A stretch of DNA of 64,000 nt from Spirosoma aerolatum. Its GTDB lineage: Bacteria; Bacteroidota; Bacteroidia; Cytophagales; Spirosomataceae. Numbering within the stretch: position 1 is the stretch's first letter; each line of letters begins with the position of its first letter. The stretch is from contig NZ_CP020104.1 in assembly GCF_002056795.1 (NCBI RefSeq), positions 434,001-498,000 of the forward strand, read 5' to 3'. A model generated the notes under the pieces. The model did not search any database. It worked only from the letters and a program-made list of their open reading frames with translations, and was not told the origin of the DNA. The position numbers and the translations under genes were made by a program. Of the stretch, positions 4,107 to 62,598 are shown in pieces.

Positions 4107-5111
4107 ATGACAACCATTGGTTTGTACGGATTTGGCCGCATTGGGCGGCAGTTTCTACGCATCGGGCTTCAGAAAAAATTGTTTGTTCCAACCGCCATAG
4201 CCGACATTCGCGACGAGCCAACGCTGGCAGCCTTGTTTGCGGTCGATACCAACTATGGTCGCTGGCCTGAACCCGTATCTGGAAAGGAAGGAAGTTTATC
4301 CATTGGCGATCAAAGCATTCCGTATATCAATTCGGCTAAAGAAGTGCCCGACTGGAAAGCCCTTGGCGTCGATCTGGTGGTGGATTGTACGGGCAGAGCT
4401 ACGACACGGGCCGGTGCCCAGGCGCATATTGACCGAGGTGCTAAATACGTACTCATCAGTGCACCCAGTAAAACGCTGGCCGACTGTGATGCCGTTTTAT
4501 TGAAAGGGATCAATCTGGAAACGTTCGATCCTGAGCAGCATAAACTGATCAGCATGGGAAGCTGCACGACCAATGCACTGGCAGCGGTTGTCAAAGTAAT
4601 TTCCGAAAACTTCGGGATTCAGTACGGTCTTTTTTCGACGGTACACTCGTACACGAACACGCAGTCGTTGACTGATCAGCCGATGAAAGACCGGCGCGAT
4701 TCGTGGGCGGCCGCCGAAAATATTATTCCCTCTTCGTCGGGCGCAGCGCGGGCCTTACAGTTTATCTGGAAAGACCTTAAAATCACAGGAAAAGCCTATC
4801 GCGTACCTACCCGAACCGGCAGTATCGCTGAATTAAATCTGATTACCGAAAAAGACTGTTCGGTACAGGAAGTAAATGATGCATTCCGTAAAGCCGCAGC
4901 CGAAGGGCCTTTACAGGGTGTGCTGGATGTGCTGGAAGACCAGTGGGCCTCGTCGCGAATTGTCGCCGATCCACACTCATCGATCATTGATCTGCCGCTC
5001 ACCGCCAAAGAAGGTAACCTGCTGTCGGTAGCGGCCTGGTATGACAACGAATGGGGCTTTTCGAATCGACTAGCCGAAGTGGCCGCCTACCTGGCCGAAC
5101 GCATTAGTTAA
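4107..5111 (+). CDS. gap: Divergent glyceraldehyde-3-phosphate dehydrogenase
   Basis: 334 residues, the usual length of type I GAPDH. The NAD-binding motif YGFGRIGRQ is at residues 7-15. The catalytic cysteine is Cys153 in SCTTNA, the general base is His180, and the C-terminal signature WYDNEWGFSNR is present. It departs from the common enzyme: the usual SNASCTTNC reads SMGSCTTNA, so the second cysteine is missing, and the phosphate-binding loops read IPSSSGAA and RVPTRTGS. It is therefore probably a secondary or specialised GAPDH rather than the main glycolytic one. A dps-like gene follows 43 bp downstream, which suggests a stress-linked unit. Confidence 0.88.
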   Translation: MTTIGLYGFGRIGRQFLRIGLQKKLFVPTAIADIRDEPTLAALFAVDTNYGRWPEPVSGKEGSLSIGDQSIPYINSAKEVPDWKALGVDLVVDCTGRATTRAGAQAHIDRGAKYVLISAPSKTLADCDAVLLKGINLETFDPEQHKLISMGSCTTNALAAVVKVISENFGIQYGLFSTVHSYTNTQSLTDQPMKDRRDSWAAAENIIPSSSGAARALQFIWKDLKITGKAYRVPTRTGSIAELNLITEKDCSVQEVNDAFRKAAAEGPLQGVLDVLEDQWASSRIVADPHSSIIDLPLTAKEGNLLSVAAWYDNEWGFSNRLAEVAAYLAERIS

Positions 5112-5154: not shown

Positions 5155-5628
5155 ATGGAAACCATCATTGGCATTACCGCCCAAAACCGGGAAGTAGTAG
5201 CTCATCAGTTGAGCAAATTGCTGGCCGACGAATTTGTACTCTACACCAAAACACTGAATGCCCACTGGAATCTGGAGGGCATGGATTTTCATTCGGTGCA
5301 TCTGTACTTCGAAGAGCTTTACAAGCAGTCGGCCGAGATTGTTGACGATGTAGCCGAACGGATTCGTCAGTTGGATCATTATGCCCCCGCTACGTTGAAA
5401 AACTTTCTTCAGTTAACGCATCTGACCGAGCAGGAGGCTGAAGGCAATACAAGCCGGAGCTGGATTGAAAAGTTACTGAGTGATCATGAAAGCATCATTG
5501 TGTTTCTGCGGGGAAATATCGCTGATTTTCAGGAGGCTCACAAAGACGCCGGAACCAGTGATTACATAACGGGTCTGATGGAAAAGCATGAAAAAATTGC
5601 CTGGATGTTGCGGGCTCACCTCAAGTAA
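5155..5628 (+). CDS. dps: Dps-type ferritin-like DNA-protection protein
   Basis: 157 residues, typical for Dps, which forms a dodecamer that oxidises and stores iron and can shield DNA. Ferroxidase-type ligands are visible: His37 in LNAHWN, His46/His49 in the DFHSVHLYFEELY motif, and Asp65/Glu68 in DDVAERIRQL. The lysine-rich N-terminal tail of E. coli Dps is absent, so DNA binding is uncertain. It lies closely behind the divergent gap gene and is followed by a strong hairpin, which is consistent with a two-gene unit. Confidence 0.92.
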   Translation: METIIGITAQNREVVAHQLSKLLADEFVLYTKTLNAHWNLEGMDFHSVHLYFEELYKQSAEIVDDVAERIRQLDHYAPATLKNFLQLTHLTEQEAEGNTSRSWIEKLLSDHESIIVFLRGNIADFQEAHKDAGTSDYITGLMEKHEKIAWMLRAHLK

Positions 5629-5650
5629 CGTTCTAACGTGATTTTCTGAA

Positions 5651-5690
5651 AAGGGAATAGGTATGCCACGCATGGTCTACCTATTCCCTT
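5651..5690. terminator. Terminator hairpin after dps
   Basis: 13-bp perfect arms (5651-5663 and 5678-5690) around a 14-nt loop, ending in CCCTTTAT, 22 bp after the dps stop. This is a likely intrinsic terminator separating dps from the kinase gene. Confidence 0.65.
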
Positions 5691-13660: not shown

Positions 13661-13675
13661 TGTTATGTTGGCTTG

Positions 13676-13729
13676 GGGCTAAGGGCCTAGGGCTGAGAGT
13701 GTTATCCCTGTGCCCTTAGCCCCATGCCC
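13676..13729. repeat. Heptamer word-array inverted repeat, rpoA/rplQ spacer
   Basis: On the left, GGG recurs every 7 bases (13676, 13683, 13690; unit GGGCTAA). On the right, CCC closes every seventh base (units ending 13708, 13715, 13722, 13729), i.e. the complementary word. The two arrays can pair into a long imperfect hairpin in the rpoA-rplQ transcript. Confidence 0.7.
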
Positions 13730-13738
13730 GACGCATTC

Positions 13739-14728
13739 TTAATCTTCGTCTAATCTGTATTTGCTGACATCCATCCCGAATGTCAAATTTTTCTCTGCTA
13801 CCAGTTGCTCCAATTCCGTAAGCGACTTCTTCCCGAAGTTGCGGAACTTCATCATATCCGAAATTTCTAACCGAACCAGATCGCCCAGCGTCCGTACATC
13901 TGCCGACTTGAGGCAGTTGTAAGCACGTACCGACAGATCGAGGTCGGCTAGCGAGGTTTTCAGCAGTTTCCGCATATGCAGAACTTCTTCGTCTACTACG
14001 TTTTCTTCTTCTGGCTTAGCCGTTTCAAACGTCATGGTCTGATCCGAGAACAGCATGAAGTGCTGGATCAGAATCTTGGCGGCTTCCTGCAACGCAATTT
14101 CAGGGTGTACCGAACCATCCGTTTCAATATCCAAAAGAAGGCGCTCGTAGTCCGTTTTTTGCTCTACCCGTGTGTTATCAACACCATATTTCACGTTTTT
14201 GATTGGCGTGTAAATGGCATCAATTGGGATATGACCAAAAGGCAGCTCATTGGCCCGTGGTTCGTCGGCCGGAACATATCCACGGCCTTTTTCCACGATA
14301 ATTTCCATCTCAAAATCCCGCGTATCATCAATGTGGCAGATTTCCAGTTCAGGATTCAGCACTTCGAATGATGGCGAAAATTTCGATATATCACCAGCTT
14401 TCAGAACTGGCTGCTTCTTAATGTTGACGGTGATTTTGTTGTCAACCATGTCCGAAATCTTTTTAAACCGAACCATTTTCAGGTTCAGAATGATCTCGGT
14501 CACGTCTTCAACTACGCCCTCAATTGAAGAAAACTCATGCAACACACCGGGAAATTTTACGCTTGTGATGGCGTATCCTTCCAGCGATGACAGCAGAATG
14601 CGACGAAGCGCATTGCCGATGGTTACACCGTATCCTTTTTCAAGGGGTTTGAATTCAAACGCCCCGTGAAAGTCGTCAGCTTTCTCCACTACGACTTTGT
14701 CGGGCATCTGGAACGCTAATATGGACAT
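13739..14728 (-). CDS. rpoA: RNA polymerase alpha subunit
   Basis: 329 residues, normal length. The N-terminal dimerisation/assembly domain (about 1-235) includes [17 protein letters not shown]. The C-terminal domain (about 255-320) contains [16 protein letters not shown] and [13 protein letters not shown], which contact UP elements and activators. Place in the cluster is standard: rpsD-rpoA-rplQ. Spacers on both sides carry word-array inverted repeats. Confidence 0.98.
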
Positions 14729-14776
14729 ACGTTTCGTATTTTTTAAGCAGTTCTCTGCCTGGCGTGAAGACTAAAC

Positions 14777-14859
14777 TAGTTTGGGCTCAAGTTTATGATT
14801 TGCGATGGGATAACGAACAAAAACTGCGTTGACCAACCGTAAACCATAAACCCAAAACC
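14777..14859. repeat. Heptamer word-array inverted repeat, rpsD/rpoA spacer
   Basis: On the right, ACC ends every seventh base (14838, 14845, 14852, 14859; unit roughly GTAAACC). The left arm (14777-14804) carries degenerate complementary words such as GTTTATG and ATTTGCG. Together they form an imperfect inverted repeat within the spacer. Confidence 0.55.
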
Positions 14860-14864
14860 ATTTA

Positions 14865-15470
14865 TTACTTCGAATACAATTCGACGATGGCCTGCTCGTT
14901 GAAGTTTTCTGGAATCTGATCACGCTCAGGGTAGCTGATAAACTTACCCGTCATTTGCTGTGCATCCCACTCAACCCAGTTATACCGCTTTGTATTCCGG
15001 GCAGTTAAGCTACCGGCAATGGCTTCAAGCGACTTCGATTTCTCACGAACGCCGATCAATTGACCGGGTTTCAATGAGTAAGAAGGAATATTTACTACTT
15101 CGCCATCCACAATAATGTGCTTGTGTGATACTAACTGACGAGCAGCCCGACGTGATGAAGCTATACCCAACCGATAAACTGTGTTATCTAAACGGGCTTC
15201 GCATAATTTAAGGAGGTTTTCACCCGTAATACCCTCCCGAACCTGTGCACGGTGGAACAAAGCCCGGAACTGACGTTCCAGAATGCCGTACGTATACTTA
15301 ACTTTTTGTTTTTCAGTTAATTGGAGCGCATATTCGGACTGTTTCCGTTTGCGGCCCCGACCGTGCATACCCGGTCCGTAATTTTTTTTCTGGAGCGCTT
15401 TGCTCGGACCCATTATGGGTTCGTTGAACTTGCGCGAAATTTTGGCTTTTGGCCCAATGTAACGTGCCAT
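14865..15470 (-). CDS. rpsD: 30S ribosomal protein S4
   Basis: 201 residues. Primary 16S rRNA-binding protein and, in many bacteria, a translational repressor of its own operon. The N-terminus [15 protein letters not shown] has no zinc cysteines. The S4 RNA-binding domain (about 90-155) contains [10 protein letters not shown] and the [10 protein letters not shown] turn. It lies between rpsK and rpoA as in other Bacteroidetes. Confidence 0.98.
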
Positions 15471-15547
15471 TCTTCAATGAATGAATAATTGTGAAACATT
15501 GGACAGACACAACCGAATGTCGCCTGTCCCTATTCATGTCATCCGTA

Positions 15548-15943
15548 TTATACGCGACGACGTTTTGGCGGCCGGCACCCGTTGTGCGGCAGCGGGGTAA
15601 TATCCCGGATAGTCGTTACTTCGATACCCGAGTTTTGGATGGTGCGAATTGCCGACTCACGACCGGAGCCTGGACCTTTCACAAACACTTCTGCTTTACG
15701 CATACCCAGATCGTGGGCAACAGCGGCACAGTTCTGCGCGGCCATTTGAGCAGCATAAGGGGTATTTTTCTTTGAGCCACGGAAGCCCATTTTACCCGCT
15801 GAAGACCAGGAAATAACCTGACCGTTCATGTTTGTGAGAGAAATGATGATGTTGTTAAACGTAGCCCGGATGTGTACCTGACCTACGGGTTCAACCACTA
15901 CCACTCGCTTTTTCGCTTTGTCTTTGCGTTTTGCTTGAGCCAT
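15548..15943 (-). CDS. rpsK: 30S ribosomal protein S11
   Basis: 131 residues, standard length. The basic N-terminus ([16 protein letters not shown]) is followed by the conserved core [15 protein letters not shown], and the C-terminus ends [16 protein letters not shown], the typical S11 tail of the platform. The order rpsM-rpsK-rpsD is conserved. Confidence 0.98.
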
Positions 15944-16045
15944 TGTTTTAGGTAATCGTCAATATGTCAGTGGAGCTCATTACTTGCCATTTCCAGTTAC
16001 TGAAATGGCGCCAAATGGTCCGAATGACGATGAGCGACCAATTAA

Positions 16046-16423
16046 TTATTTCGTTACTTTTTTCTTGTTGGCAACTGTCTTCCGTTTCCCTTTCCGGGTA
16101 CGGGAGTTATTTTTCGTATGCTGACCACGAACGGGCAAGCCTTTCCGGTGACGCAGACCCCGGTAGCAACCGATGTCCATCAATCGCTTGATGCTCAACT
16201 GAACTTCCGAACGTAGCTGACCTTCTACTTTGTATTCGTTCGAAATCGCATTACGAACAGCACTAGCTTCAGCGTCTGTCCATTCGCTGGCTTTTTTATC
16301 AACGCTGATGCCTGCGTCGGTCAGGATCTTTTTTGCCCGGCTCCGACCAATGCCGAAGATGTATGTCAGCGCGATCTCGCCACGCTTCTTGTCTGGAATA
16401 TCAACACCTGCAATACGTGCCAT
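16046..16423 (-). CDS. rpsM: 30S ribosomal protein S13
   Basis: 125 residues. S13 of the 30S head contacts L5 and tRNA. It begins [19 protein letters not shown], has the [14 protein letters not shown] helix-turn segment and the [14 protein letters not shown] motif, and a lysine-rich C-terminus. It starts 2 bases after the rpmJ stop, so the two are probably translationally coupled. A short hairpin (15987-16008) lies in the spacer to rpsK. Confidence 0.98.
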
Positions 16424-16425
16424 TC

Positions 16426-16542
16426 TTAGCCTTGTCTTTGTTTGTAACGGGGATTCTTTTTGTTGATCACGTACAGTTTCCCTTTCCGACGGATCACTTT
16501 GCAGTCTTCGCTGCGCTTCTTGATTGACGCTTTAACTTTCAT
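16426..16542 (-). CDS. rpmJ: 50S ribosomal protein L36 (zinc-free form)
   Basis: 38 residues, [18 protein letters not shown]... ending NPRYKQRQG. The start is the ATG at 16542. Only one cysteine remains of the Cys3-His zinc ribbon of the classical form, so this is the zinc-independent C-minus type. Its position between infA and rpsM is the standard one. Confidence 0.95.
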
Positions 16543-16550
16543 GATAAAAG

Positions 16551-16637
16551 TTTTCAGTTTACTGGTTTTCAGTTTTCAGTTCGTATTTCAGTCAGGCACA
16601 TTAGCATAGCTGAAAACAGTAAACTGAAAACGGAAAA
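16551..16637. repeat. Heptamer word-array inverted repeat, infA/rpmJ spacer
   Basis: On the right, the unit CTGAAAA recurs with exact 7-bp spacing four times (16610-16637). On the left, the complementary word TTTTCAG recurs with 7-8 bp spacing (16551-16579). This is one of the cleanest examples of the class. Confidence 0.75.
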
Positions 16638-16638
16638 C

Positions 16639-16857
16639 TTATTTATACCTATACACAATCCTCGCCTTACTCAAATCGTAAGGCGACATTTCCAATTTTA
16701 CGCGATCGCCGGGCAAAATTTTGATGTAGTTCATCCGCATTTTACCGGAGATGTGAGCAATTACCTCGTGCTTATTTGCCAGTTCGACCCGGAACATCGC
16801 ATTCGATAAGGCTTCCAAAATAACGCCGTCCTGTTCTATAGAATTCTGTTTTGCCAT
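16639..16857 (-). CDS. infA: Translation initiation factor IF-1
   Basis: 72 residues, a single S1-like OB fold, typical length. Motifs [21 protein letters not shown] and [18 protein letters not shown] are characteristic. IF-1 binds the 30S A site during initiation. It follows map by 6 bp and precedes rpmJ, the usual order. Confidence 0.98.
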
Positions 16858-16863
16858 ATTCGC

Positions 16864-17703
16864 TTAAGCTACCATCAGTTCGGAAGTTTCGATCATCAGG
16901 CTTGTATTCGCGGTGACTGCTTCAATGTATTCGAAGGTTGTCAGAATCTCGGGTTTCCCTTTTCGTACAGCTACCGTATGTTCAAAGTGTGCAGAAGGTT
17001 TACGATCAATAGTCCGAATGGTCCAGCCATCACGTTCTTGCACAACTCCTTTTTTGCCGAAGTTAATCATGGGTTCAATTGCCAGAATCATCCCTTCATA
17101 CAACTTAGGCCCTTGACCACGTTTGCCGTAGTTGGGTACTTCAGGAGCTTCATGTAAGTTCTGGCCAACGCCATGGCCTACGAGTTCCCGAACAACCGAA
17201 TAACCGAATTTCTCTGTATACGTCTGGATCGCATATCCAATGTCGCCCACCCTATTCCCTTCAATCGCTTTTTCAACACCGATGTAAAGAGATTCCTTCG
17301 TTCTTGCCAACAACCGGCGAGTGGCCGGGGTCACATTACCGACAGGATAGGTATAGGCGCTATCGCTATGATAACCATTTAGTTTTACACCACAATCGAT
17401 GGAAACGATATCTCCATCACGCAGTTCGTAGCGGCTTGGAAAACCATGAACCACCACATCATTGACGGAAATACAGAGCGAAGCCGGAAACTTATTATAT
17501 CCTAAAAATGAAGGCGTGCCACCATTATCCTTAATGAACGTTTCTGCGACCTTATCCAGTTCCTTCGTTTGAACCCCAGGTCGGATAAGTTTTGCAACTT
17601 CAGCGTGCGCTTTTCCCAGAACCTGTGCACTGATTTTCATCAAAGCGATTTCTTCTTCGCTTCGAATGTAAATCATCTTGTCCTTTTTGTCAGAACCAGC
17701 CAT
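16864..17703 (-). CDS. map: Methionine aminopeptidase, type I
   Basis: 279 residues from the ATG at 17703, 5 bp after secY. A second ATG nine codons in (MIYIRSEEEIALMK) is also possible. It removes the N-terminal Met of nascent proteins. Dinuclear metal ligands are visible: Asp in SIDCGVKLNGYHSD (two Asp), His in ELVGHGVGQNLHE, Glu in AIEPMINFG and Glu in FEHTVAV. It shares the cluster with secY, as in many bacteria. Confidence 0.97.
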   Translation of the reverse strand: MAGSDKKDKMIYIRSEEEIALMKISAQVLGKAHAEVAKLIRPGVQTKELDKVAETFIKDNGGTPSFLGYNKFPASLCISVNDVVVHGFPSRYELRDGDIVSIDCGVKLNGYHSDSAYTYPVGNVTPATRRLLARTKESLYIGVEKAIEGNRVGDIGYAIQTYTEKFGYSVVRELVGHGVGQNLHEAPEVPNYGKRGQGPKLYEGMILAIEPMINFGKKGVVQERDGWTIRTIDRKPSAHFEHTVAVRKGKPEILTTFEYIEAVTANTSLMIETSELMVA

Positions 17704-17708
17704 TTCAA

Positions 17709-19025
17709 TTAAGCGGCTACCGTTTCATTGGTACGTCCTTGTACACGGCCTGATTTCATCAAACCTTCGTAGCGACGCATGAGCAGATAGCTTTCTATTT
17801 GTTGCAGCGTATCCAATACAACACCAACCATAATTAACAACGATGTGCCGCCGAAGAACTGCGCAAATCCACTGGTCATCCCCAACAGATTGGCAATCGC
17901 TGGTAAAATGGCTACAATAGCCAGCATAACAGCGCCAGGTAGCGTGATTCGGTCAAGAACGGTACCGATGTAATCTGAGGTTTGAACACCTGGCTTCACA
18001 CCGGGTATAAAACCTCCACTTCGCTTCATATCATCGGCAATCTGTGTCGGGTTAACCGAAATAGCCGTGTAGAAGAACGTGAAGATGATGATCAGCAACC
18101 CAAACAAAACATTGTATTGCCAGGTTGTATAGCTTTGGAAAGCGTTTTGGACACTCGCTGCAAAATCACTTTTCTCCGCAAACAGACCCGCTACATAGGT
18201 TGGGATAAACATCAGTGCCTGAGCAAAAATAATTGGCATAACGCCCGCAGCATTCAACTTTAAAGGCAGATACTGACGTTGCCCACCAACCACTTTATTT
18301 CCGATAACCTGCTTGGCATATTGAATTGGAATCCGACGTACAGCCTGAGTCAGGACTACCGCACCCATCACAACAAAATAGAGGGCAACCAGTTCCAGAA
18401 CAAAAATCAGAATACCAGCCGAACCTCTCGATTGCTGCTCACCAATAATAGCACCTGGAAGCCGCGATACAATCCCGATCATAATGATCATAGAGATCCC
18501 GTTTCCAATTCCTTTATCAGTAATCCGTTCGCCCAGCCACATGCAGAAAATAGTACCTGCAGTTAGCACAAACAGAGACGAGATGGTAAATAAACCTCGA
18601 TCAATCAGTAAAGCTTCTGCCGGAATAGTTGTACGTACGTACGTAATGGCCTGAACAGCCGTTACACCAATCGTAAGTACCCGCGTGATTTGGTTCAGCC
18701 GTTTCCGACCCGATTCGCCTTCCTTCTGCATTTTCTGGAAGTAAGGAAGAGCCAGCGTTAGAAGCTGAATAGCAATCGAAGCCGATATATACGGCATGAT
18801 CCCAAGTGCGAAAATGGACGCTTTACTAAAAGCACCACCTAGGAAAGTATCCAACAAACCGAGTAAACCCTGCGGATTTAGGTTCAATTTTTGGGGATCT
18901 ACACCTGGCAGTACGATCGCCGTGCCAAGACGGAACGCTGTAATAAACAACAGCGTGTTGAGGATTCGACTCCGCAACTCGTCAATTGCAAAAATATTTT
19001 TAAACGTGGTGATGAGTCGGTTCAT
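17709..19025 (-). CDS. secY: Preprotein translocase subunit SecY
   Basis: 438 residues with about ten membrane helices. SecY is the channel subunit of SecYEG. Signatures include the first helix region ILNTLLFITAFRLGTAIVLPGVD, the GIGNGISMIIM segment and the cytoplasmic loop RRIPIQYAKQ needed for SecA or ribosome contact. It follows rplO and overlaps no neighbour. Confidence 0.98.
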   Translation of the reverse strand: MNRLITTFKNIFAIDELRSRILNTLLFITAFRLGTAIVLPGVDPQKLNLNPQGLLGLLDTFLGGAFSKASIFALGIMPYISASIAIQLLTLALPYFQKMQKEGESGRKRLNQITRVLTIGVTAVQAITYVRTTIPAEALLIDRGLFTISSLFVLTAGTIFCMWLGERITDKGIGNGISMIIMIGIVSRLPGAIIGEQQSRGSAGILIFVLELVALYFVVMGAVVLTQAVRRIPIQYAKQVIGNKVVGGQRQYLPLKLNAAGVMPIIFAQALMFIPTYVAGLFAEKSDFAASVQNAFQSYTTWQYNVLFGLLIIIFTFFYTAISVNPTQIADDMKRSGGFIPGVKPGVQTSDYIGTVLDRITLPGAVMLAIVAILPAIANLLGMTSGFAQFFGGTSLLIMVGVVLDTLQQIESYLLMRRYEGLMKSGRVQGRTNETVAA

Positions 19026-19056
19026 AAAAGTAGGTCGACTGTTGCCGTGCTACGAC

Positions 19057-19533
19057 TTAGTTAGCTGCTTCCTCGTTCGCTTCTTTAACTGGCACAATGG
19101 CCTTTCCCCCTGCTTTTTCGATGGCTTCTTTTGCACTGGCCGAGAAAGCATGCGCATGGATTTCAACAGCACTGGTCAGTTCACCACGGCTCAGTACTTT
19201 AACCAGGTCTTTCTTGCTAACCAGTCCATGCTGAAGCAGAAAATCCAGGTCAACAACAGTTGTCTTGGTTTCATCAACGAGTGTCTGGATGCTATCCAGA
19301 TTGAGGGGTTTGTATTCGACGCGGTTAATATTCTTAAAGCCGAATTTCGGAACACGACGTTGCAGGGGCATCTGACCACCTTCGAAGTGTGTTTTACGAC
19401 TATAACCTGAGCGTGATTGCGCCCCTTTGTGACCACGGGTAGAGGTTCCACCCATACCTGATCCTTGACCGCGTCCGACTCGCTTGCGCTCCCTAACGGA
19501 ACCTTTTGCCGGTGTAAGGTTGCTTAAATTCAT
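19057..19533 (-). CDS. rplO: 50S ribosomal protein L15
   Basis: 158 residues, slightly long because of an Ala/Glu-rich C-terminal tail. The N-terminal Gly/Arg-rich rRNA-threading segment (RKRVGRGQGSGMGGTSTRGH) and the motif EGGQMPLQRRVPKFGF are typical. It lies between rpmD and secY. Confidence 0.97.
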   Translation of the reverse strand: MNLSNLTPAKGSVRERKRVGRGQGSGMGGTSTRGHKGAQSRSGYSRKTHFEGGQMPLQRRVPKFGFKNINRVEYKPLNLDSIQTLVDETKTTVVDLDFLLQHGLVSKKDLVKVLSRGELTSAVEIHAHAFSASAKEAIEKAGGKAIVPVKEANEEAAN

Positions 19534-19626
19534 TGGTTTATTTGTAAAAAGTGATTCTTTTGGCTGTTCGTAGCCGCTTTGATGTTACAAAAAGCGGACC
19601 GAAAACCAAAAGAATCGCAAAGGTAC

Positions 19627-19806
19627 TTAAATTTCTTCAATTTTCACCAGGTGCTGCACCTTATTGATTGCACCTTTCAGCGCGTCGGTATATTCCAGTT
19701 CAACGCTGCGGTTGATCTTGCCCAAGCCTAACGACTTGATGGCATTTTTCTGAGATAACGGCCGCTTAATGGTGCTGCTGACCTGCGTGATGCGTACTCG
19801 TGCCAT
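19627..19806 (-). CDS. rpmD: 50S ribosomal protein L30
   Basis: 59 residues starting MARVRITQVSSTIKRPLSQK, with the conserved NAIKSLGLGKINRSVE segment. Start ATG at 19806, stop TAA at 19627-19629. Normal length for bacterial L30, and in its normal place between rpsE and rplO. Confidence 0.95.
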   Translation of the reverse strand: MARVRITQVSSTIKRPLSQKNAIKSLGLGKINRSVELEYTDALKGAINKVQHLVKIEEI

Positions 19807-19825
19807 GTCTGTTGCTCCTTTTAAA

Positions 19826-20344
19826 TTAACCGTTAAATACTTTCGCCAAGCTAACCTGACGCTGGAAAGCTACCTGATGCGGCAAGCGCATTTTCAGCAG
19901 GGCATCCAGCGTAGCTTTTACTACGTTGTGCGGGTTCGACGACCCTTTCGATTTTGCCAGGATGTCGTGTACACCAGCCGATTCAAGAACGGCACGCATA
20001 GCACCACCGGCAATCACGCCTGTACCAGGAGCAGCTGGTTTCAGCAGGACAAAGCCACCGCTGAATTTACCTTCCATTTCATGGGGAACCGTGCGCTTCA
20101 GAAGAGGAACCTGTACCAGGTTTTTCTTTGCGTCTTCTACGCCTTTGGCAATAGCGTCGGTTACTTCATTTGCCTTACCTAGTCCGTATCCTACTACGCC
20201 GTTACCATCGCCAACGACAACAATTGCCGAGAAGCTGAACCGGCGACCACCTTTTACCACCTTCGCTACGCGGTTGATGGCTACCACCCGTTCTTTCAGG
20301 TCGGCTTCGTTGAATTTTGTCGGTCTTGCTGAATTAATATTCAT
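19826..20344 (-). CDS. rpsE: 30S ribosomal protein S5
   Basis: 172 residues. The N-terminal double-stranded RNA-binding-like domain has [25 protein letters not shown]. The C-terminal domain has [24 protein letters not shown]5 helps decoding fidelity and mRNA helicase activity. Standard spc-operon position. Confidence 0.98.
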
Positions 20345-20347
20345 CGC

Positions 20348-20701
20348 TTAGAACTTAAGGCCACCCTCGCGGGCTGCATCGGCCAGTGCTTTTACTTTAC
20401 CGTGATATAAGTAGCCGTTACGGTCGAACACAGCCGTGCTAATGTTCTGAGCAACTGCTTTCTCGGCCAGGCGCTGGCCTACTTTTTTCGCCGTTTCGAT
20501 TGTATTTCCTTCGGCTTCGCTTTTTAATTCAACCGATGAAGCAAATGCAAGTGTACGACCTGCCAGATCATCGATCAATTGAGCGTAAATCGCTTTGTTA
20601 GAGCGGAAAACCGACAGGCGAGGGCGTTCTGCCGTACCCGATACTTTTGCCCGGATACCGTATTTAATCCGCTGTCTTCTTTCTTGTTTATTCGTTGCCA
20701 T
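20348..20701 (-). CDS. rplR: 50S ribosomal protein L18
   Basis: 117 residues. The 5S rRNA-binding protein, with [18 protein letters not shown] and [24 protein letters not shown]. The stop is 3 bp from the rpsE start, which suggests coupling. A 132-bp spacer to rplF holds an inverted word array. Confidence 0.98.
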
Positions 20702-20733
20702 GTTATTTGATTCCGACCAAATAGGCTGTTTTA

Positions 20734-20823
20734 ATTGTCAGTAAGTTGTCATCTACTTGTCATAATTGTCACTTGGTAAAGCCATAAAAAAAAGGAATGA
20801 CTATTAAATGACAATTGAATGAC
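20734..20823. repeat. Undecamer word-array inverted repeat, rplF/rplR spacer
   Basis: TTGTCA occurs four times on the left (at 20735, 20746, 20757 and 20766; spacing 11, 11, 9). The complementary word AATGAC occurs three times on the right (20796, 20807, 20818; spacing 11, 11). This is the same architecture as the heptamer elements but with an 11-bp period. Confidence 0.7.
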
Positions 20824-20833
20824 AGAAGATAAC

Positions 20834-21391
20834 TTATTTCTTCGACGAAGTTTTACCAGCTTTCCGGCGAACTTGTTCACCAATGAAGCGGATACCTTTG
20901 CCTTTGTAAGGCTCAACTTTACGCAACGACCGGATTTTAGCCGCTACATCACCAAGCAGTTGTTTGTCCGAACCTTCCAGATACACTTTGGGGTTCTGAC
21001 CTTTTTCGGTTACGGCCGTTACCTTGATCTCGCTTGGAACAGCTACGTACACATTATGTGAATAGCCTAGTTGAAGCTCAAGAACGTTATTCGTAACGGC
21101 GGCTTTATAACCTACCCCGATAATTTCGAGGTCCAGTTTAAAGCCCGTGCTAACACCGGTTACCATGTTGTTGACCAGCGAGCGGTACAGACCGTGCATC
21201 GCCTTGTGGCGTTTCTGGTCGGTTGGGCGCGATACTTGGATTTGGCCTTCTTCGACTGCTACCGAAATGTCCGGGTCAACCGATTGGGTCAGGGTGCCTT
21301 TAGGCCCTTTTACCGTTACGACGTTTTGGGCGTCGACGGACAACGTAACGTTGCTGGGCAGGGCGATGGGTTTCTTACCTATACGTGACAT
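20834..21391 (-). CDS. rplF: 50S ribosomal protein L6
   Basis: 185 residues in two L6 repeats: MSRIGKKPIALPSNV through about residue 80, then the second with the signature PEPYKGKGIRF-type segment (VEPYKGKGIRFIGEQVRRKAG). It stabilises the sarcin-ricin region and the factor-binding site. Standard position between rpsH and rplR. Confidence 0.98.
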   Translation of the reverse strand: MSRIGKKPIALPSNVTLSVDAQNVVTVKGPKGTLTQSVDPDISVAVEEGQIQVSRPTDQKRHKAMHGLYRSLVNNMVTGVSTGFKLDLEIIGVGYKAAVTNNVLELQLGYSHNVYVAVPSEIKVTAVTEKGQNPKVYLEGSDKQLLGDVAAKIRSLRKVEPYKGKGIRFIGEQVRRKAGKTSSKK

Positions 21392-21404
21392 CGTTCAGTT
21401 CGGA

Positions 21405-21803
21405 TTAATAGACGTAACACAATACCTCTCCACCAACGTTCAGCGTTTTGGCTTCTTTATCCGTCATTACGCCTTTCGAAGTTGAAAGGATAGCGACGCC
21501 AAGGCCATTCAGGATACGTGGCAGGTTATCGGCTCCCCGGTATTGACGCAGACCTGGGCGGCTGATACGTTGCAGGTCAACGATAGCGGATTGCTTCGTT
21601 GTTGGGTTGTACTTGAGCGCGATTTTGATAGTGCCCTGTGCTGTGCTGTCATCGAACTTATAGTTCTGGATGTAGCCTTTGTCGTACAACACTTTGGTAA
21701 TTTCTTTCTTTATATTGGAAGCAGGAATTTCCACAACCCGGTGCTTTGCCCGGATAGCGTTTCTGACGCGTGTCAGGTAATCTGCTATAGGATCTGTATT
21801 CAT
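21405..21803 (-). CDS. rpsH: 30S ribosomal protein S8
   Basis: 132 residues. Begins [21 protein letters not shown] and has the C-terminal signature [27 protein letters not shown] central 16S rRNA-binding protein; in E. coli it also represses the spc operon. Normal length and place. Confidence 0.98.
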
Positions 21804-21850
21804 TCTAAGCGTTGCGTTACTTGCAAACTCCTGCTTTCCAGGAAAGTTCG

Positions 21851-21858
21851 CAAAATTA
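21851..21858 (-). promoter_or_regulatory. Possible internal -7 promoter box upstream of rpsH
   Basis: TAATTTTG on the minus strand, a match to the Bacteroidetes TAnnTTTG box, 48 bp upstream of the rpsH start. No -33 TTG is found at the preferred distance of 19-21 bases, so this is only a weak candidate for an internal promoter. Confidence 0.25.
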
Positions 21859-21894
21859 CGGAAACTGAATTACAAATTGAAATGGAGTCTGGAA

Positions 21895-22164
21895 CTACCA
21901 GCTTGCCTTGGTTACACCTGGAATCTTACCTGCCGATGCCATCTCGCGGAATGTAACCCGAGAGATACCAAACTTGCGCATGTATCCCCGAGGACGGCCG
22001 GTCAGTTTGCAACGGTTGTGCAGACGAACTGGCGATGCGTTTTTGGGCAGCTTATCCAGACCGATGTAATCACCAGCCTCTTTCAGTGCCTTACGCTTGG
22101 CAGCATACTTGGCAACTAACGCTTCGCGTTTCCGTTCCCGTGCTTTGATTGATTCTTTTGCCAT
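21895..22164 (-). CDS. rpsN: 30S ribosomal protein S14 (zinc-free form)
   Basis: 89 residues, the long form without CxxC zinc motifs ([26 protein letters not shown]). The N-terminal basic helix [16 protein letters not shown] is typical. It lies between rplE and rpsH. With the zinc-free L36 and S4, it suggests a ribosome with little zinc demand. Confidence 0.97.
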
Positions 22165-22187
22165 TGTTTTAGCCTTTGTGTCGGTTA

Positions 22188-22742
22188 TTATTTACCACTT
22201 TTAGCAAACGGCATTCCCATTGCTTTCAGCAGCTCGTAGCTCTCGTTATCGGTGTTGGCTGTCGTCACAAACGTGATGTCCATTCCCGAGATGCGGGCTA
22301 CTTTATCGATGCTGATTTCAGGGAAGATAATCTGTTCCTGCACGCCGAACGTATAGTTACCGCGACCATCGAACCCTTTATCGCTGATGCCTTTGAAGTC
22401 ACGAACCCGAGGCAACGATACCGTTGTCAGCCGGTCAAGGAATTCATACATCCGCTCACCACGCAGCGTTACTTTTGCACCGATCGGCATTTTCTCCCGA
22501 AGTTTGAAGTTCGAGACTGCCTTTTTCGACAACGTCGCAACGGCTTTCTGACCAGTGATCTGCGTTAGTTCGTCAACACCTACGTCTACCAATTTTTTAT
22601 CAGCGACGGCGGCTCCGATACCTTTATTGATGACAATCTTGCTCAGACGCGGTACTTGCATAACCGACTTATACTGGAACTTGTCTTTCAACTGAGCTAC
22701 TACCTCAGTTAAATATTTATCTTTCAGTCTTGGCGTTGCCAT
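22188..22742 (-). CDS. rplE: 50S ribosomal protein L5
   Basis: 184 residues. A 5S rRNA-binding protein at the central protuberance. Conserved parts include [37 protein letters not shown] and [18 protein letters not shown]. Normal length and gene order (rplX-rplE-rpsN). Confidence 0.98.
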
Positions 22743-22757
22743 TTTCTTAGACCTTTA

Positions 22758-23114
22758 TTATTTGCGGACGTCTGGGATGAAATTGCCGGTTTTCTTCGAA
22801 TACCGTTGCAGTTTACCCTTCTCATTCAACTTACGACCTGTGCGGGTAGGTTCGCCAGTGGCCGGATCAACCAGTTTCAGATTACTGATATGGATTGATC
22901 CTTCCGTTTTTTCGAGGCTTCCCTGTGGGTTCGAAGCCGTGGGCTTCAAGTGCTTGGTAATCATAGCCACGCCCTCAACCCGAGCACGATCTTTTTCTAC
23001 GATTACTTCTTTCACAACACCACGCTGGCCTTTCGAGTTACCGCCAATCACCAGAACGGTATCGCCCGTTTTGATGTGGAATTTGTGTTTCGGTAGCGTT
23101 ACTTTCTTTTCCAT
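22758..23114 (-). CDS. rplX: 50S ribosomal protein L24
   Basis: 118 residues. A KOW motif is near the N-terminus (IKTGDTVLVIGGNSKGQRGVV), followed by the assembly-initiator core with EGVAMITKHLKPTASNPQGS. The C-terminus is basic. The stop-to-start gaps to rplN and rplE are 3 and 15 bp. Confidence 0.98.
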   Translation of the reverse strand: MEKKVTLPKHKFHIKTGDTVLVIGGNSKGQRGVVKEVIVEKDRARVEGVAMITKHLKPTASNPQGSLEKTEGSIHISNLKLVDPATGEPTRTGRKLNEKGKLQRYSKKTGNFIPDVRK

Positions 23115-23117
23115 TGC

Positions 23118-23486
23118 TTACAGTACCTCTGGGGCTAACGATACGATTTTCATAAATTGCTTCTCGCGCAATTCGCGGGCTACAGGCCCGAAAATCCGGG
23201 TGCCACGTGGCTCATCGTTATTGTTGAGCAACACAGCTGCGTTGTCTTCAAAGCGAATGTACGAACCGTCTTTCCGGCGTACTTCTTTCTTGGTCCGAAC
23301 AACTACGGCTTTCGAAACCGTACCTTTTTTCATACTGCTGGACGACAGAGCTTGCTTTACTGTCACGACAATCTTGTCACCGACTGATGCATACCGCTTG
23401 CCTGTACCGCCCAGAACGCGGATAACCAGCACTTCTTTGGCGCCACTGTTATCGGCTACTCCTAATCTTGATTCTTGCTGTACCAT
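23118..23486 (-). CDS. rplN: 50S ribosomal protein L14
   Basis: 122 residues, very conserved: [19 protein letters not shown], then the [16 protein letters not shown] segment and [25 protein letters not shown] at the C-terminus. It forms part of inter-subunit bridges. It follows rpsQ by 3 bp. Confidence 0.98.
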
Positions 23487-23489
23487 GGC

Positions 23490-23855
23490 TTACTTCGCCT
23501 TCTCGATGATTTCGACTAATCTCCAACGCTTATTTTTGCTCAATGGGCGGGTTTCCATCACGCGAACGATATCGCCGATTCCACACGCATTGTTCTCATC
23601 ATGAACCGTCAGTTTCTTCGTTTTATTCTGAAACTTGTGGTACAAAGGGTGTTTCACCTTGCGGTCAATAGCAACAGTAATGGTTTTCTGCATCTTGTTG
23701 CTGGTCACCCGTCCGATACGCTCTTTCCGAGCGTTGCGCTCCGAAGCCGAGTTCGCTTCGCTCGTTGCTGGAGCGGCTGCTGTCGGCTGTTCTGTTATAG
23801 CTGCCGCTGGCGTGCTTACTTCTTCCTGCGGTGCTGGTGCTTGTTGCTCTTCCAT
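23490..23855 (-). CDS. rpsQ: 30S ribosomal protein S17 with acidic N-terminal extension
   Basis: 121 residues against a usual 80-90. Residues 1-40 are an added Ala/Glu/Pro/Thr-rich tail with no basic residues until Arg40. Residues 41-121 are a normal S17 ([20 protein letters not shown], then [15 protein letters not shown]). No later ATG fits: the only internal Met lies within the conserved core. The extended start is therefore likely real. The start is 12 bp from the rpmC stop. Confidence 0.95.
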
Positions 23856-23867
23856 CGTCGTGTCTTA

Positions 23868-24062
23868 TTAGGCTTGCCGCGATTTAGCTGTCAGTTCCGT
23901 GTTCAGGCGAGCAATCCGTTTACGGCTCTCGCGGATACGCATTGGATTCTCTACAGGAGATACAGCATGCGCAAACTTCAATTTCAGCAGTCGGTCCTGT
24001 TCAGCACCAATCTCGGTACGAATCTGTTCAGCCGACAATCCTTTTAAATCTTCTTTTTTCAT
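23868..24062 (-). CDS. rpmC: 50S ribosomal protein L29
   Basis: 64 residues. Two-helix protein at the tunnel exit, the docking site for SRP and trigger factor. It begins MKKEDLKGLSAEQIRTEI and includes the LLKLKFAHAVSPVENPMRIR segment typical of L29. Located between rplP and rpsQ. Confidence 0.97.
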   Translation of the reverse strand: MKKEDLKGLSAEQIRTEIGAEQDRLLKLKFAHAVSPVENPMRIRESRKRIARLNTELTAKSRQA

Positions 24063-24082
24063 TTTGTTCGTCGCTTGAGGTA

Positions 24083-24514
24083 TTATTCAGCGGTTTGCTC
24101 CTGATAATCGCGCCGAACCACAAATTTGGTCCGAACGGGCAGCTTTTGAGCGGCCAGACGCAGGGCTTCCATACCCGTTGCCAGATCAACCCCCGTCGCT
24201 TCGAACATAATCGTGCCGGGTTTTACAACGGCCACCCAGTATTCGGGAGCACCTTTACCTTTACCCATCCGTACTTCGGCTGGCTTCTTGGTAATTGGCT
24301 TATCGGGGAAAATACGAATCCAAACCTGGCCTTCGCGTTTCATCGCCCGCGTTACGGAGATACGAGCTGCTTCAATCTGGCGAGCCGTAATACGACCGGG
24401 CTCAAGCGATTTAATAGCGAACGTACCGAAGGAAATCTCATGACCGCGTGATGCGATACCAGGAATCCGTCCTTTATGTTGTTTGCGGAATTTTGTTCTT
24501 TTTGGCTGTAACAT
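24083..24514 (-). CDS. rplP: 50S ribosomal protein L16
   Basis: 143 residues. Starts [19 protein letters not shown] and has the signature [19 protein letters not shown]. It helps shape the A-site and 5S region. Standard order rpsC-rplP-rpmC; the spacer to rpsC contains a heptamer word-array element. Confidence 0.98.
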
Positions 24515-24525
24515 CTTTATGAAGA

Positions 24526-24615
24526 AGTTTACAGTTTTCGGTCTTCGGTTTCGGTCTTTACGCTAGCTAATCTTACATCAGCCTGCCGTAAACTGTAAAC
24601 CGTAAACTAAAAACT
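24526..24615. repeat. Heptamer word-array inverted repeat, rpsC/rplP spacer
   Basis: On the right, GTAAACT/GTAAACC words recur with exact 7-bp spacing (24588, 24595, 24602, 24609). On the left, the complementary words AGTTTAC and AGTTTTC and variants recur at 24526, 24533, 24540 and 24547. A long imperfect hairpin results. Confidence 0.75.
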
Positions 24616-24618
24616 CGT

Positions 24619-25470
24619 TTATCGTTTCTGTCCTCCGCGGCCACCCCGGTCATTGCCACCGCGGCCACCACGACCACCCCGATCGTTATTATCGCGATCA
24701 CCCCGGTTGCGGCCACCACGACCACCCCGATCGTTACCATCACGGTCGCCACGTGGACCACGACGATCACCGCGATCGTTAGAAGAGGCAGAACGCTCTC
24801 CGGCTTGTGCCTGGCTCATCATGGCTGCTGGCGACAGATCGCGCTTGCCATACACTTCGCCTTTGAAAATCCACACTTTGATACCGATTTTACCGTATAC
24901 CGTCTGGGCTTCAGAGATAGCGTAATCGATATCGGCGCGGAGCGTATGAAGAGGCACACGACCTTCTTTATATTGCTCAGAGCGGGCAATTTCAGCACCC
25001 CCTAAACGACCCGATACTTTCACTTTGATACCCTGAGCACCAACGCGAAGCGCCGACTGAATGGCCTGCTTCATGGCACGACGGAACGAAATACGAGCCT
25101 GTAACTGCTGAGCGATGGCTTCACCAACCAGTTTGGCATCAATTTCTGGCCGTTTGATCTCGAAGATGTTGATCTGGACATCTTTGCCCGTAATCTTTTT
25201 CAATTCTTCTTTGATCTTATCGACTTCTCCGCCCCCTTTACCAATCACAATACCTGGCCGAGCTGTGTGGATCGTGAGCGTTACGCGCTTCAGCGTACGT
25301 TCGATAACTACCCGAGCAATGGCTCCTTTCGGAATACGGGCGGCTACGTATTTCCGGATTTTTTCGTCTTCAACGAGTTTGTCCGAAAATTCTTTTCCAC
25401 CGTACCAGCTCGATTCCCAGCCCCGAACAATACCAAGTCGCAGGCCAACTGGATTTATTTTTTGTCCCAT
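24619..25470 (-). CDS. rpsC: 30S ribosomal protein S3 with Arg-Gly-rich C-terminal tail
   Basis: 283 residues; S3 is usually 210-240. The KH domain (about 38-106) has [18 protein letters not shown], and the C-terminal S3 domain runs to about residue 215. Residues 230-283 are a low-complexity tail of Asp, Asn, Arg and Gly built from NDRGG-like and RGG units, an RNA-binding type of tail. S3 lines the mRNA entry channel, so the tail could reach incoming mRNA; this is inference. Confidence 0.97.
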
Positions 25471-25476
25471 TTCTTT

Positions 25477-25869
25477 TTATTGTTCGTTTTCAGGGGTTTC
25501 TGCTTCTGCCGATTGCAACAACGATTGAGCCGCACTGTCAACCACGATTGTGATGTGGTTCGAGCGCTTCCGAATCCGGTGACCGCGCCCCTGGGGAGCT
25601 GGGCGAAGACGCTTCAGCATAGGACCGCCATCAACAAAAACCGTTTTTACATACAGATCAGCGTCTTCAATCCGCTCATCTTCATTTTTCTGCTGCCAGT
25701 TGGCAACGGCCGACAAAAGCACTTTCTGCAATATGGCGGCACCAGCCTGTGGCTGATATTTTAATAGACCCAACGCCCGGCTAACGCGCTGACCACGAAT
25801 CAGGTCGGCGATTAACCGCATCTTACGGGGCGACGTGGGCACATCTCTAAGTCTTGCTACTGCTTCCAT
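25477..25869 (-). CDS. rplV: 50S ribosomal protein L22
   Basis: 130 residues. Begins [26 protein letters not shown]; the tunnel-lining hairpin region [20 protein letters not shown] is conserved. The C-terminus carries a short Glu-rich tail. It starts 80 bp after rpsS, and the spacer carries a heptamer array. Confidence 0.98.
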
Positions 25870-25879
25870 GTTTTTTTAT

Positions 25880-25946
25880 GGCTCGGAGCGAGGTGCTTGG
25901 TGCTTGGGGTTTCTATCGCCCTGCACCTGGCTCCCTGCCCCATGCT
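25880..25946. repeat. Heptamer word-array inverted repeat, rpsS/rplV spacer
   Basis: On the left, four 7-bp words end in GG (25880-25907; the last two are both TGCTTGG). On the right, four 7-bp words start with CC (25919-25946). The two arrays are complementary and GC-rich. Confidence 0.7.
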
Positions 25947-25949
25947 AGT

Positions 25950-62392: not shown

Positions 62393-62402
62393 AAGGCAAT
62401 TT

Positions 62403-62594
62403 TGAATGATAGAATGACTGAATGACTGAATAGTTGAATTGCTGAATAACTGAGTGAGTGGGTACAGTATAATAAAAGCTTTCTAGCATTTTTTTGGTTG
62501 TTTCTCGGAATGACAGAAAATGCTAGAAAATTTAGTTTACAGTGTAGTAAGTAGTTAACCCACCCATTCAATCATTCAACAATTCAATCATTCG
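62403..62594. repeat. Octamer word-array inverted repeat with inserted hairpin
   Basis: Left arm: seven 8-bp words with TGAAT-type heads at exact 8-bp spacing (62403-62458). Right arm: four complementary 8-bp words (62563-62594). The loop holds a second inverted repeat (TTCTAGCATTTT...AAAATGCTAGAA) with a CGGAATGACAG motif inside. Fills the gap between rimK and the hypothetical gene. Confidence 0.7.
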
Positions 62595-62598
62595 AAAT

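Follow-up and report, generated by a model that had tools for sequence, protein, structure and literature searches.

The window analysed here is a 64,000-nucleotide stretch of the Spirosoma aerolatum genome (G000:C1:434001-498000 of a 7.96-Mb single-contig genome). Six spacers of its S10-spc-alpha ribosomal protein cluster, which lies on the minus strand, hold foldbacks whose complementary arms, made of short degenerate words, face each other. These word-array foldbacks are real, genus-wide and unusual. Our results showed that foldbacks of this kind are dispersed through the genome, that they can be replaced as a whole between close relatives with intact flanks, and that their words tend to follow the stock of vocabularies (dialects) of the genome in which they lie. 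We give an even chance to a reading in which template switching during replication would maintain the complementary arms of dispersed word-array foldbacks, and a copying process would overwrite them from a pool spread over the whole genome.

Word-array foldbacks in the ribosomal cluster of Spirosoma

The study covers 36 genomes of the genus, source genome included; in named records the closest RplF to that of the source genome belongs to a Spirosoma metagenome-assembled genome (89%). For the cluster comparison 32 were used, those outside it being G024, G025, G028 (no RplF match) and G026. We located the cluster genes in the 31 relatives, excised each spacer and computed z scores for self-match at a given lag and for RNA folding against 200 dinucleotide shuffles.

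In the window, the rpoA-rplQ spacer (13661..13738, stem 13670-13728) carries a foldback of GGGC words (lag-7 z 4.5, fold z -6.6) and infA-rpmJ (16543..16638, stem 16550-16631) one of GTTTTCAG words (lag-7 z 4.8, fold z -6.6). Foldbacks of GTTTACGG words and of GGTGCTT/GGGC type occupy rpsC-rplP (24515..24618; lag-7 z 4.8, fold z -3.9) and rpsS-rplV (25870..25949; lag-7 z 3.9, fold z -4.0). The TTGTCA foldback of rplF-rplR (20702..20833) has a period of 11 (lag-11 z 3.6, lag-7 z 0.7, fold z -4.6). The weakest of the six is the GTTTATG-type foldback of rpsD-rpoA (14729..14864, stem 14791-14851; lag-7 z 2.7, fold z -2.2); the other five beat all 200 shuffles in folding. No strand is assigned to any of them. 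The first-pass annotation of this DNA spoke of five spacers and named six, and all six positions are correct. The periods that it proposed, 7 nt at four or five sites and 11 nt at rplF-rplR, likewise hold beyond dinucleotide shuffles, the former at five sites. Word copies are degenerate: Tandem Repeats Finder (TRF) rows match at 73-88%, except for one 16-nt stretch at 100%, and rpoA-rplQ has no TRF row. An Rfam search of the window gave no match at gathering score. Predicted promoters in the cluster are not in excess (16 vs 16.4 in shuffles), and terminator-like sites number 27 against 19.6 expected, none of them inside the six spacers in a scan that permits loops of up to 8 nt.

The period is shared across the genus. 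A lag-7 z above 3 was found at rpsS-rplV in 23/32 species, at rpsC-rplP in 22/30, at infA-rpmJ in 23/32 and at rpoA-rplQ in 30/31; it is rarer at rplF-rplR (7/31) and rpsD-rpoA (6/32). The control spacers rpsN-rpsH, rpmD-rplO, rpsM-rpsK and rpsK-rpsD never reach this value (0/32 each, 0/128 together). These tests exclude spacers shorter than 45 or longer than 250 nt, namely those of L110 and L113 (rpsC-rplP), L118 (rplF-rplR) and L111 (rpoA-rplQ); the last, 544 nt long through a gene-end artefact, has a lag-7 z of 5.5 once trimmed. The 555-nt secY-map spacer of L113 and the 133-nt rplE-rpsN spacer of L119 are also artefacts of gene-end mapping and not real lengths. The period of 11 is not specific to rplF-rplR, where the best lag over 31 species is 7 in nine, 11 in five and 14 in five.

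Two side observations concern the same cluster. The rplB-rpsS spacer, 9 nt long in the other 30 species, holds a period-7 foldback in L095 (83 nt) and L115 (82 nt), an apparent gain inside an essential operon, with unclear edges. At rpsD-rpoA, several relatives have a second, GC-rich hairpin of GGCAGAACC...GGTTCTGCC type just after rpsD, a form that the window lacks.

Vocabularies turn over at fixed sites

At one and the same site, different species use GGGC, GTTT, GTTTGT, GGAGAAA, AGTC or TTCAAGT vocabularies, and the period is kept. For example, the rpoA-rplQ spacers of L089 and L090 are built of GGAGAAGGG words unrelated to those of the window, and rpsC-rplP in L090 is built of TTCAAGT-type words. 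Over 150 random species pairs, mean spacer identity is 0.54-0.55 at the four clearest sites (rpsS-rplV, rpsC-rplP, infA-rpmJ and rpoA-rplQ) vs 0.46-0.48 after shuffling, a few over-long spacers being omitted, and 0.87 at the controls rpsN-rpsH and rpsK-rpsD. The first-pass annotation had described a common plan with words that differ from site to site, not the spread of one fixed sequence, and the comparison of spacers between species bears this out. It had also named what would speak against it, namely that related genomes lack arrays at these sites and have unrelated sequence there; the sequence in relatives is indeed often unrelated, but the arrays are mostly present.

Turnover is visible between close relatives. 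Species with 93-96% core-gene identity can have unrelated words at a site while their 150-bp flanks are at least 93% identical. Among the 24 closest pairs, spacers are often either well preserved or near random, and the 150-bp gene flanks stay similar. We scored as whole replacement a spacer identity below 0.65 with flanks above 0.85 and 0.80. By this measure, rpsS-rplV and rpoA-rplQ are replaced in 15 of the 24 pairs each, infA-rpmJ in 10, rplF-rplR in 4, rpsC-rplP in 2 and rpsD-rpoA in none, with no replacement in 24 pairs at any of the four control spacers; as pairs share species, these counts are not independent. Between the window and L089 (core 0.958), the rpoA-rplQ spacers are 0.52 identical and their flanks 0.98 and 0.97, and rpsS-rplV, compared by eye, has one extra 7-nt word per arm in the window. 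In L117 and L119 (core 0.939), three sites differ and three agree (0.84-0.98). The same occurs outside the cluster: at L185:5751 the dialect is ATGTAGG in the source genome and G014 but AATG in G021, with flanks 97 and 95% identical to those of G021.

Site words tend to follow the genome's own stock

We counted dialect loads over the 36 genomes as triple-word patterns, with the reversed pattern as control. Loads per genome range over 1-227 for GTTT, 0-144 for AGGAG, 0-39 for GGGC and 0-178 for AGTC. Controls reach 10 (GTTT), 25 (AGGAG, in G006), 7 (GGGC) and 15 (AGTC, in G024, which has 0 true matches), so low counts mean little.

Among the 32 species, a dialect that is more abundant in the rest of the genome also tends to occupy more of the six ribosomal sites: rho is 0.67 for GTTT (p 3e-5), 0.39 for GGGC (p 0.027) and 0.45 for AGTC (p 0.009). 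At rpoA-rplQ, AGTC words are found in 2/32 species, both among the three AGTC-rich genomes (138-178; the next has 22), and GGGC words in seven, four of which are among the five GGGC-richest. AGTC arrays abound in G005, G016 and G032. In comparisons between sister species, 9 of 11 agree with the genome stock and 2 disagree. The words at a site thus tend to be those in which its genome is rich. A process confined to each site, as the first-pass annotation had offered, does not account for this, nor for arrays beyond the ribosomal cluster.

Word foldbacks occur genome-wide and beyond the genus

We scanned 1.444 Mb of the source genome (the window plus 69 stretches of 20 kb) and found 366 intergenic foldbacks, 49 of them with a lag-7 z above 3. 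At the same threshold, lags 5, 6, 9, 10, 11, 12 and 13 gave 3, 5, 8, 9, 2, 10 and 5 foldbacks, and lag 3 gave 11. The excess answers the concern, raised with the first annotation, that random spacers might show as much period-7 structure; given these background counts, a few of the 49 may still be chance. Within genes, 3 of 129 foldbacks pass. The 49 lie mostly between co-directional genes (34), with 8 convergent, 6 divergent and 1 at an edge.

Lags 4, 8 and 16 (20, 24 and 19 foldbacks) reflect a second class with 8-nt words, among them AAAGAGTG and TGAATGAT. It comprises 43 stems, of which 26 were scored intergenic by a crude gene caller that placed many period-8 arrays inside genes. A foldback at 62393..62598 in the window, outside the cluster, has the plan of the ribosomal sites with this other word length: it consists of TGAATGAC words with an inner hairpin (lag-8 z 6.1, fold z -5.3).

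Copies of single dialects are dispersed and partly alignable in the source and sister genomes. Another dispersed palindrome, GTAGAGACGCGAT...ATCGCGTCTCTAC, whose loop also has GGCTGACGCA, was seen at L128:13440-13520 and in L125, L129 and L149, with about a dozen copies in G021 (83-91%).

Word foldbacks extend beyond the genus, unevenly. From 80 named cluster loci of Bacteroidota, 79 yielded 594 spacers, with a mean lag-7 z of 1.04, the highest of lags 2-22. Spacers with a lag-7 z above 3 were found, for example, in Fibrivirga (L010, 4/7), Larkinella (L011, 3/9), Chitinophagales (L067, 4/13) and Symbiothrix (L088, 3/4). Dyadobacter and Runella loci have 0-1 each, and a metagenome-assembled genome labelled Spirosoma fluviale (L037), whose RplF is just 70% alike, has 0/7. 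We noticed no description of such word-array foldbacks in Bacteroidota in the open-access literature.

Mismatches between arms give no hint of RNA selection at the four clearest sites

If the transcript must pair, the sense strand should accept G-U mismatches more readily than A-C. We aligned arms without a wobble bonus, omitted stems scoring below 24 and thinned the counts to one representative per 80% cluster. A conserved non-array hairpin in the rpmD-rplO spacer (19534..19626, minus strand), without lag-7 signal in the 32 species, served as an internal control. This hairpin, found in all 32 species, has a G-U:A-C ratio of 67:10 in 31 stems and 30:3 after thinning (p 1.4e-6), a strong G-U excess on the sense strand that recommends it as a putative functional RNA in the spc operon. 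The test can therefore see RNA selection, and it saw none at the four clearest array sites. Counts over all stems are 20:28 at rpsS-rplV, 19:25 at rpsC-rplP, 39:25 at infA-rpmJ and 38:32 at rpoA-rplQ, together 76:76 after thinning. At the two remaining sites the ratio leans to G-U (rplF-rplR 39:16, thinned 26:13, p 0.053; rpsD-rpoA 27:9, thinned 11:5, p 0.21), and these two weaker sites may be mixed. Outside the window, co-directional arrays gave 45:38 in 38 arrays and non-arrays 167:117 in 145 stems.

Other features of the stems bear on a DNA process. Template switching is described as homogenising arms and inverting loops (PMC8604942), and a role in making and preserving hairpins, with enrichment of pairs with 5' G or U, has been proposed for it (PMC8794818). 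G outnumbers C in the 5' arm of 117/126 arrays (46/48 in the source genome), a skew that is valid on both strands since a foldback looks the same from either one. Of the 126, 70 come from the cluster in related species, which makes them partly orthologous. Such a G-rich 5' arm is the asymmetry proposed for template switching in PMC8794818. Non-array stems have the same lean, more weakly (229:155). Of 146 orthologous pairs entered, 4 show an inverted loop, the number passing the loop-length filter not being reported; the clearest case is L128:19450 vs G021 (score 20 vs 4). Of the two processes that the first-pass annotation had suggested, repair of foldbacks at the DNA level agrees with the parity of G-U and A-C mismatches where the arrays are clearest and with the few loop inversions. 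Selection for RNA hairpins of a set size finds no support at these four sites and stays conceivable at rplF-rplR and rpsD-rpoA, where the ratio leans to G-U.

Selection on the transcript is nevertheless the first alternative to weigh. Hairpins would be selected between cistrons for processing, stability or start-site insulation, and as any folding sequence would serve, words could turn over. The foldback is retained, with a fold z below -2, at the six spacers in 25/32, 28/30, 30/31, 28/32, 29/32 and 26/31 species, which selection would also explain, and the G-U lean at two sites agrees with it. However, the clearest sites differ from the control hairpin in their mismatches, and three species have a short spacer without a foldback (L118 at rplF-rplR, 35 nt; L110 and L113 at rpsC-rplP, 37 and 38 nt). 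Moreover, comparable arrays stand in divergent and convergent spacers, and pairing alone does not need 7-nt words. We regard RNA selection as unlikely to be the main explanation, though individual sites may have an RNA function.

A shared cap and the question of mobility

Some dispersed foldbacks carry an apical cap, GCTGACGC-N-GCGTCAGC, with 306 matches in 29/36 genomes vs 4 control matches; a few of the 306 are nested or repeated at contig ends. The cap is 29 nt long in 15 of 24 matches in examined sequence. Among the matches listed we inspected 20 cap loci, 7 in G005, 6 in G006, 6 in G007 and 1 in G010. The arms beneath the cap are AGTC and mostly GTTT-like in G005, AGGAG in 5/6 loci of G006 and GTTT-like in G007 and G010; the capped L230 and L223 have no word arms. 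The Rfam search of 19 of the 20 loci gave no match at gathering score. The full cap is absent from the 1.5 Mb of the 80 named Bacteroidota loci. Nor is it enriched at the ribosomal sites, where its half-sites, present in 0-2 species at any one site, are about as frequent as shuffling predicts, and we rejected it as a hallmark of the ribosomal arrays.

Dispersed, partly alignable copies, uneven species-specific amplification, a common cap beneath different arms and the one apparent gain at rplB-rpsS are what would be expected of non-autonomous mobile elements moved by a transposase, either of the REPIN type (doublets of repetitive extragenic palindromic, REP, sequences) or miniature inverted-repeat transposable elements (MITEs). 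However, 7/36 genomes have no match to Y1_Tnp, the only transposase family examined, and they include the genomes richest in GTTT and in AGTC words. Among the stems listed, no array adjoins the five Y1 genes of the source genome. The GTAG/CGTC tag at the palindrome end is not in excess (4/48 arrays vs 23/264 non-arrays), and no clean empty/full pair or target duplication was found in three orthologous 20-kb regions of two sisters and in the cluster. On the first two counts a Y1 transposase is not supported as the mover, and mobility by a transposase of any kind appears improbable. In L211, a Y1 transposase gene lies between near-identical GTAACGCGGGTGG...CCACCCGCGTTAC hairpins (4860-4946 and 5588-5665), as expected of a REP-associated tyrosine transposase (RAYT) with its own REPs.

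A proposed copying process as the best explanation

We propose that the six spacers belong to a genome-wide class of non-coding foldbacks whose arms are strings of degenerate words, mostly of 7 nt but also of 8 and 11, read toward the loop; the 5' side usually has the G-rich word. Arm complementarity would be kept by template switching between arms at replication and not by a need of the transcript to pair, and slippage would add and remove words. New dialects would be copied onto an existing foldback from others in that genome. Since sites that mostly keep a hairpin are often written in other words, which tend to match those of their own genome, a DNA-copying process seems responsible, and the foldbacks of the ribosomal cluster look like tolerated passengers.

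A more specific form of this proposal, which we hold tentatively and with more doubt than belief, defines the class by form and not by sequence: stems of free text in genome-specific dialects, some with the GCTGACGC-N13-GCGTCAGC cap, would overwrite each other at fixed positions between genes, and no Y1 transposase would be needed. If true, intergenic DNA would be rewritten in concert, even in essential operons, by a copying process resident in the genome that is either hairpin-primed or ectopic.

Several results weigh against rewriting from a genome-wide pool. We found neither a donor copy for any single replacement nor an insertion footprint. The correlations between site words and stock ignore the species tree, and the 11 sister comparisons were drawn from just 7 of 11 disjoint pairs. 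GGGC at rpsS-rplV is unrelated to stock in the 32 species, GTTT taken singly at rplF-rplR or at rpsD-rpoA falls short of significance, and L090, although rich in GGGC, has none at rpoA-rplQ. Of the four loop inversions, two are in non-array stems and one is weak, and gaps of 7 nt are only mildly common (9/66 in arrays, 2/32 in non-arrays). The retained folding and the G-U lean described above belong here as well.

Rewriting from the pool must also be compared with an exchange of spacer alleles among species, in which homologous recombination would act through the conserved genes on either side. Allele clusters do cut across the tree, and at rpoA-rplQ five clusters hold 30/32 species. However, the 42 distant pairs sharing an allele at this site gain no clear extra identity in their flanks (0.860 vs 0.863 and 0.927 vs 0.926), and alleles tend to follow their own genome's stock. 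Such exchange is quite improbable, though old or very short tracts may have been exchanged. The least probable alternative, purely local slippage and template switching that would build each array anew without input from other loci, fits the loop inversions and the words gained or lost at individual loci, and heptamer repeats reported as over-represented in bacteria (PMC4692102), but not the recurrence of the same few vocabularies at many loci or their tendency to follow the stock.

Comparison with known systems

Functional RNA structures are usually argued from paired changes in the two arms of a stem. In a single operon of 32 genomes, arms here change together without any hint of RNA selection where the arrays are clearest, beside a hairpin that shows it, a warning against covariation-based RNA calls in such genomes.

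The STRR (short tandemly repeated repetitive) sequences of cyanobacteria, attributed to Vioque 1997, are reportedly listed with the intergenic heptamer repeats. The Spirosoma arrays have the tandem 7-nt unit of STRR-type repeats and are not near-perfect, direct-only arrays (copies mostly 73-88%). Among the other heptamer repeats, TAACTGA forms direct intergenic arrays, also within ribosomal operons (PMC4679880), and GGGAATC forms intergenic arrays in Xanthomonas and Nostoc (PMC4692102). As far as these sources describe them, they share with our arrays the 7-nt intergenic unit and a lineage-specific abundance, and TAACTGA also the ribosomal operons. Nevertheless, they are mostly direct arrays of one word, whereas the Spirosoma arrays face each other with complementary degenerate words in many vocabularies.

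REPINs, which depend on conserved REP sequences and are linked to RAYT genes (PMC3116915), are likewise dispersed intergenic inverted repeats that form hairpins and are amplified within a genome. Unlike REPINs as characterised there, the Spirosoma arrays have no fixed REP sequence, no GTAG/CGTC excess and no adjoining Y1 transposase. Inverted repeats shaped by template switching resemble them in 5' G excess and perhaps also in arms kept complementary and in loop inversion (PMC8604942, PMC8794818). In the form given in these two sources, template switching accounts for the upkeep of stems and not for word structure, dispersal or dialect replacement.

Among the literature compared, the nearest described case appears to be the P6b stem of the Nostoc tRNA-Leu(UAA) group I intron, which is built of heptamers of class I (TDNGATT) or class II (NNTGAGT) (PMC4476775). 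Both have 7-nt words on the two sides of a stem, class switching at one site in related strains, with one class replaced by another repeatedly, and two-sided indels. They differ in setting: the Spirosoma foldbacks lie between ribosomal protein genes and not in a tRNA-Leu group I intron. As portrayed in that source, P6b is one site in a self-splicing intron with two classes, whereas Spirosoma has many intergenic sites and dialects, and a dialect choice tied to genome stock is a feature of Spirosoma. The Spirosoma foldbacks thus make two puzzles testable, the abundance of 7-nt words in bacteria and the swapping of vocabularies in stems like Nostoc P6b.

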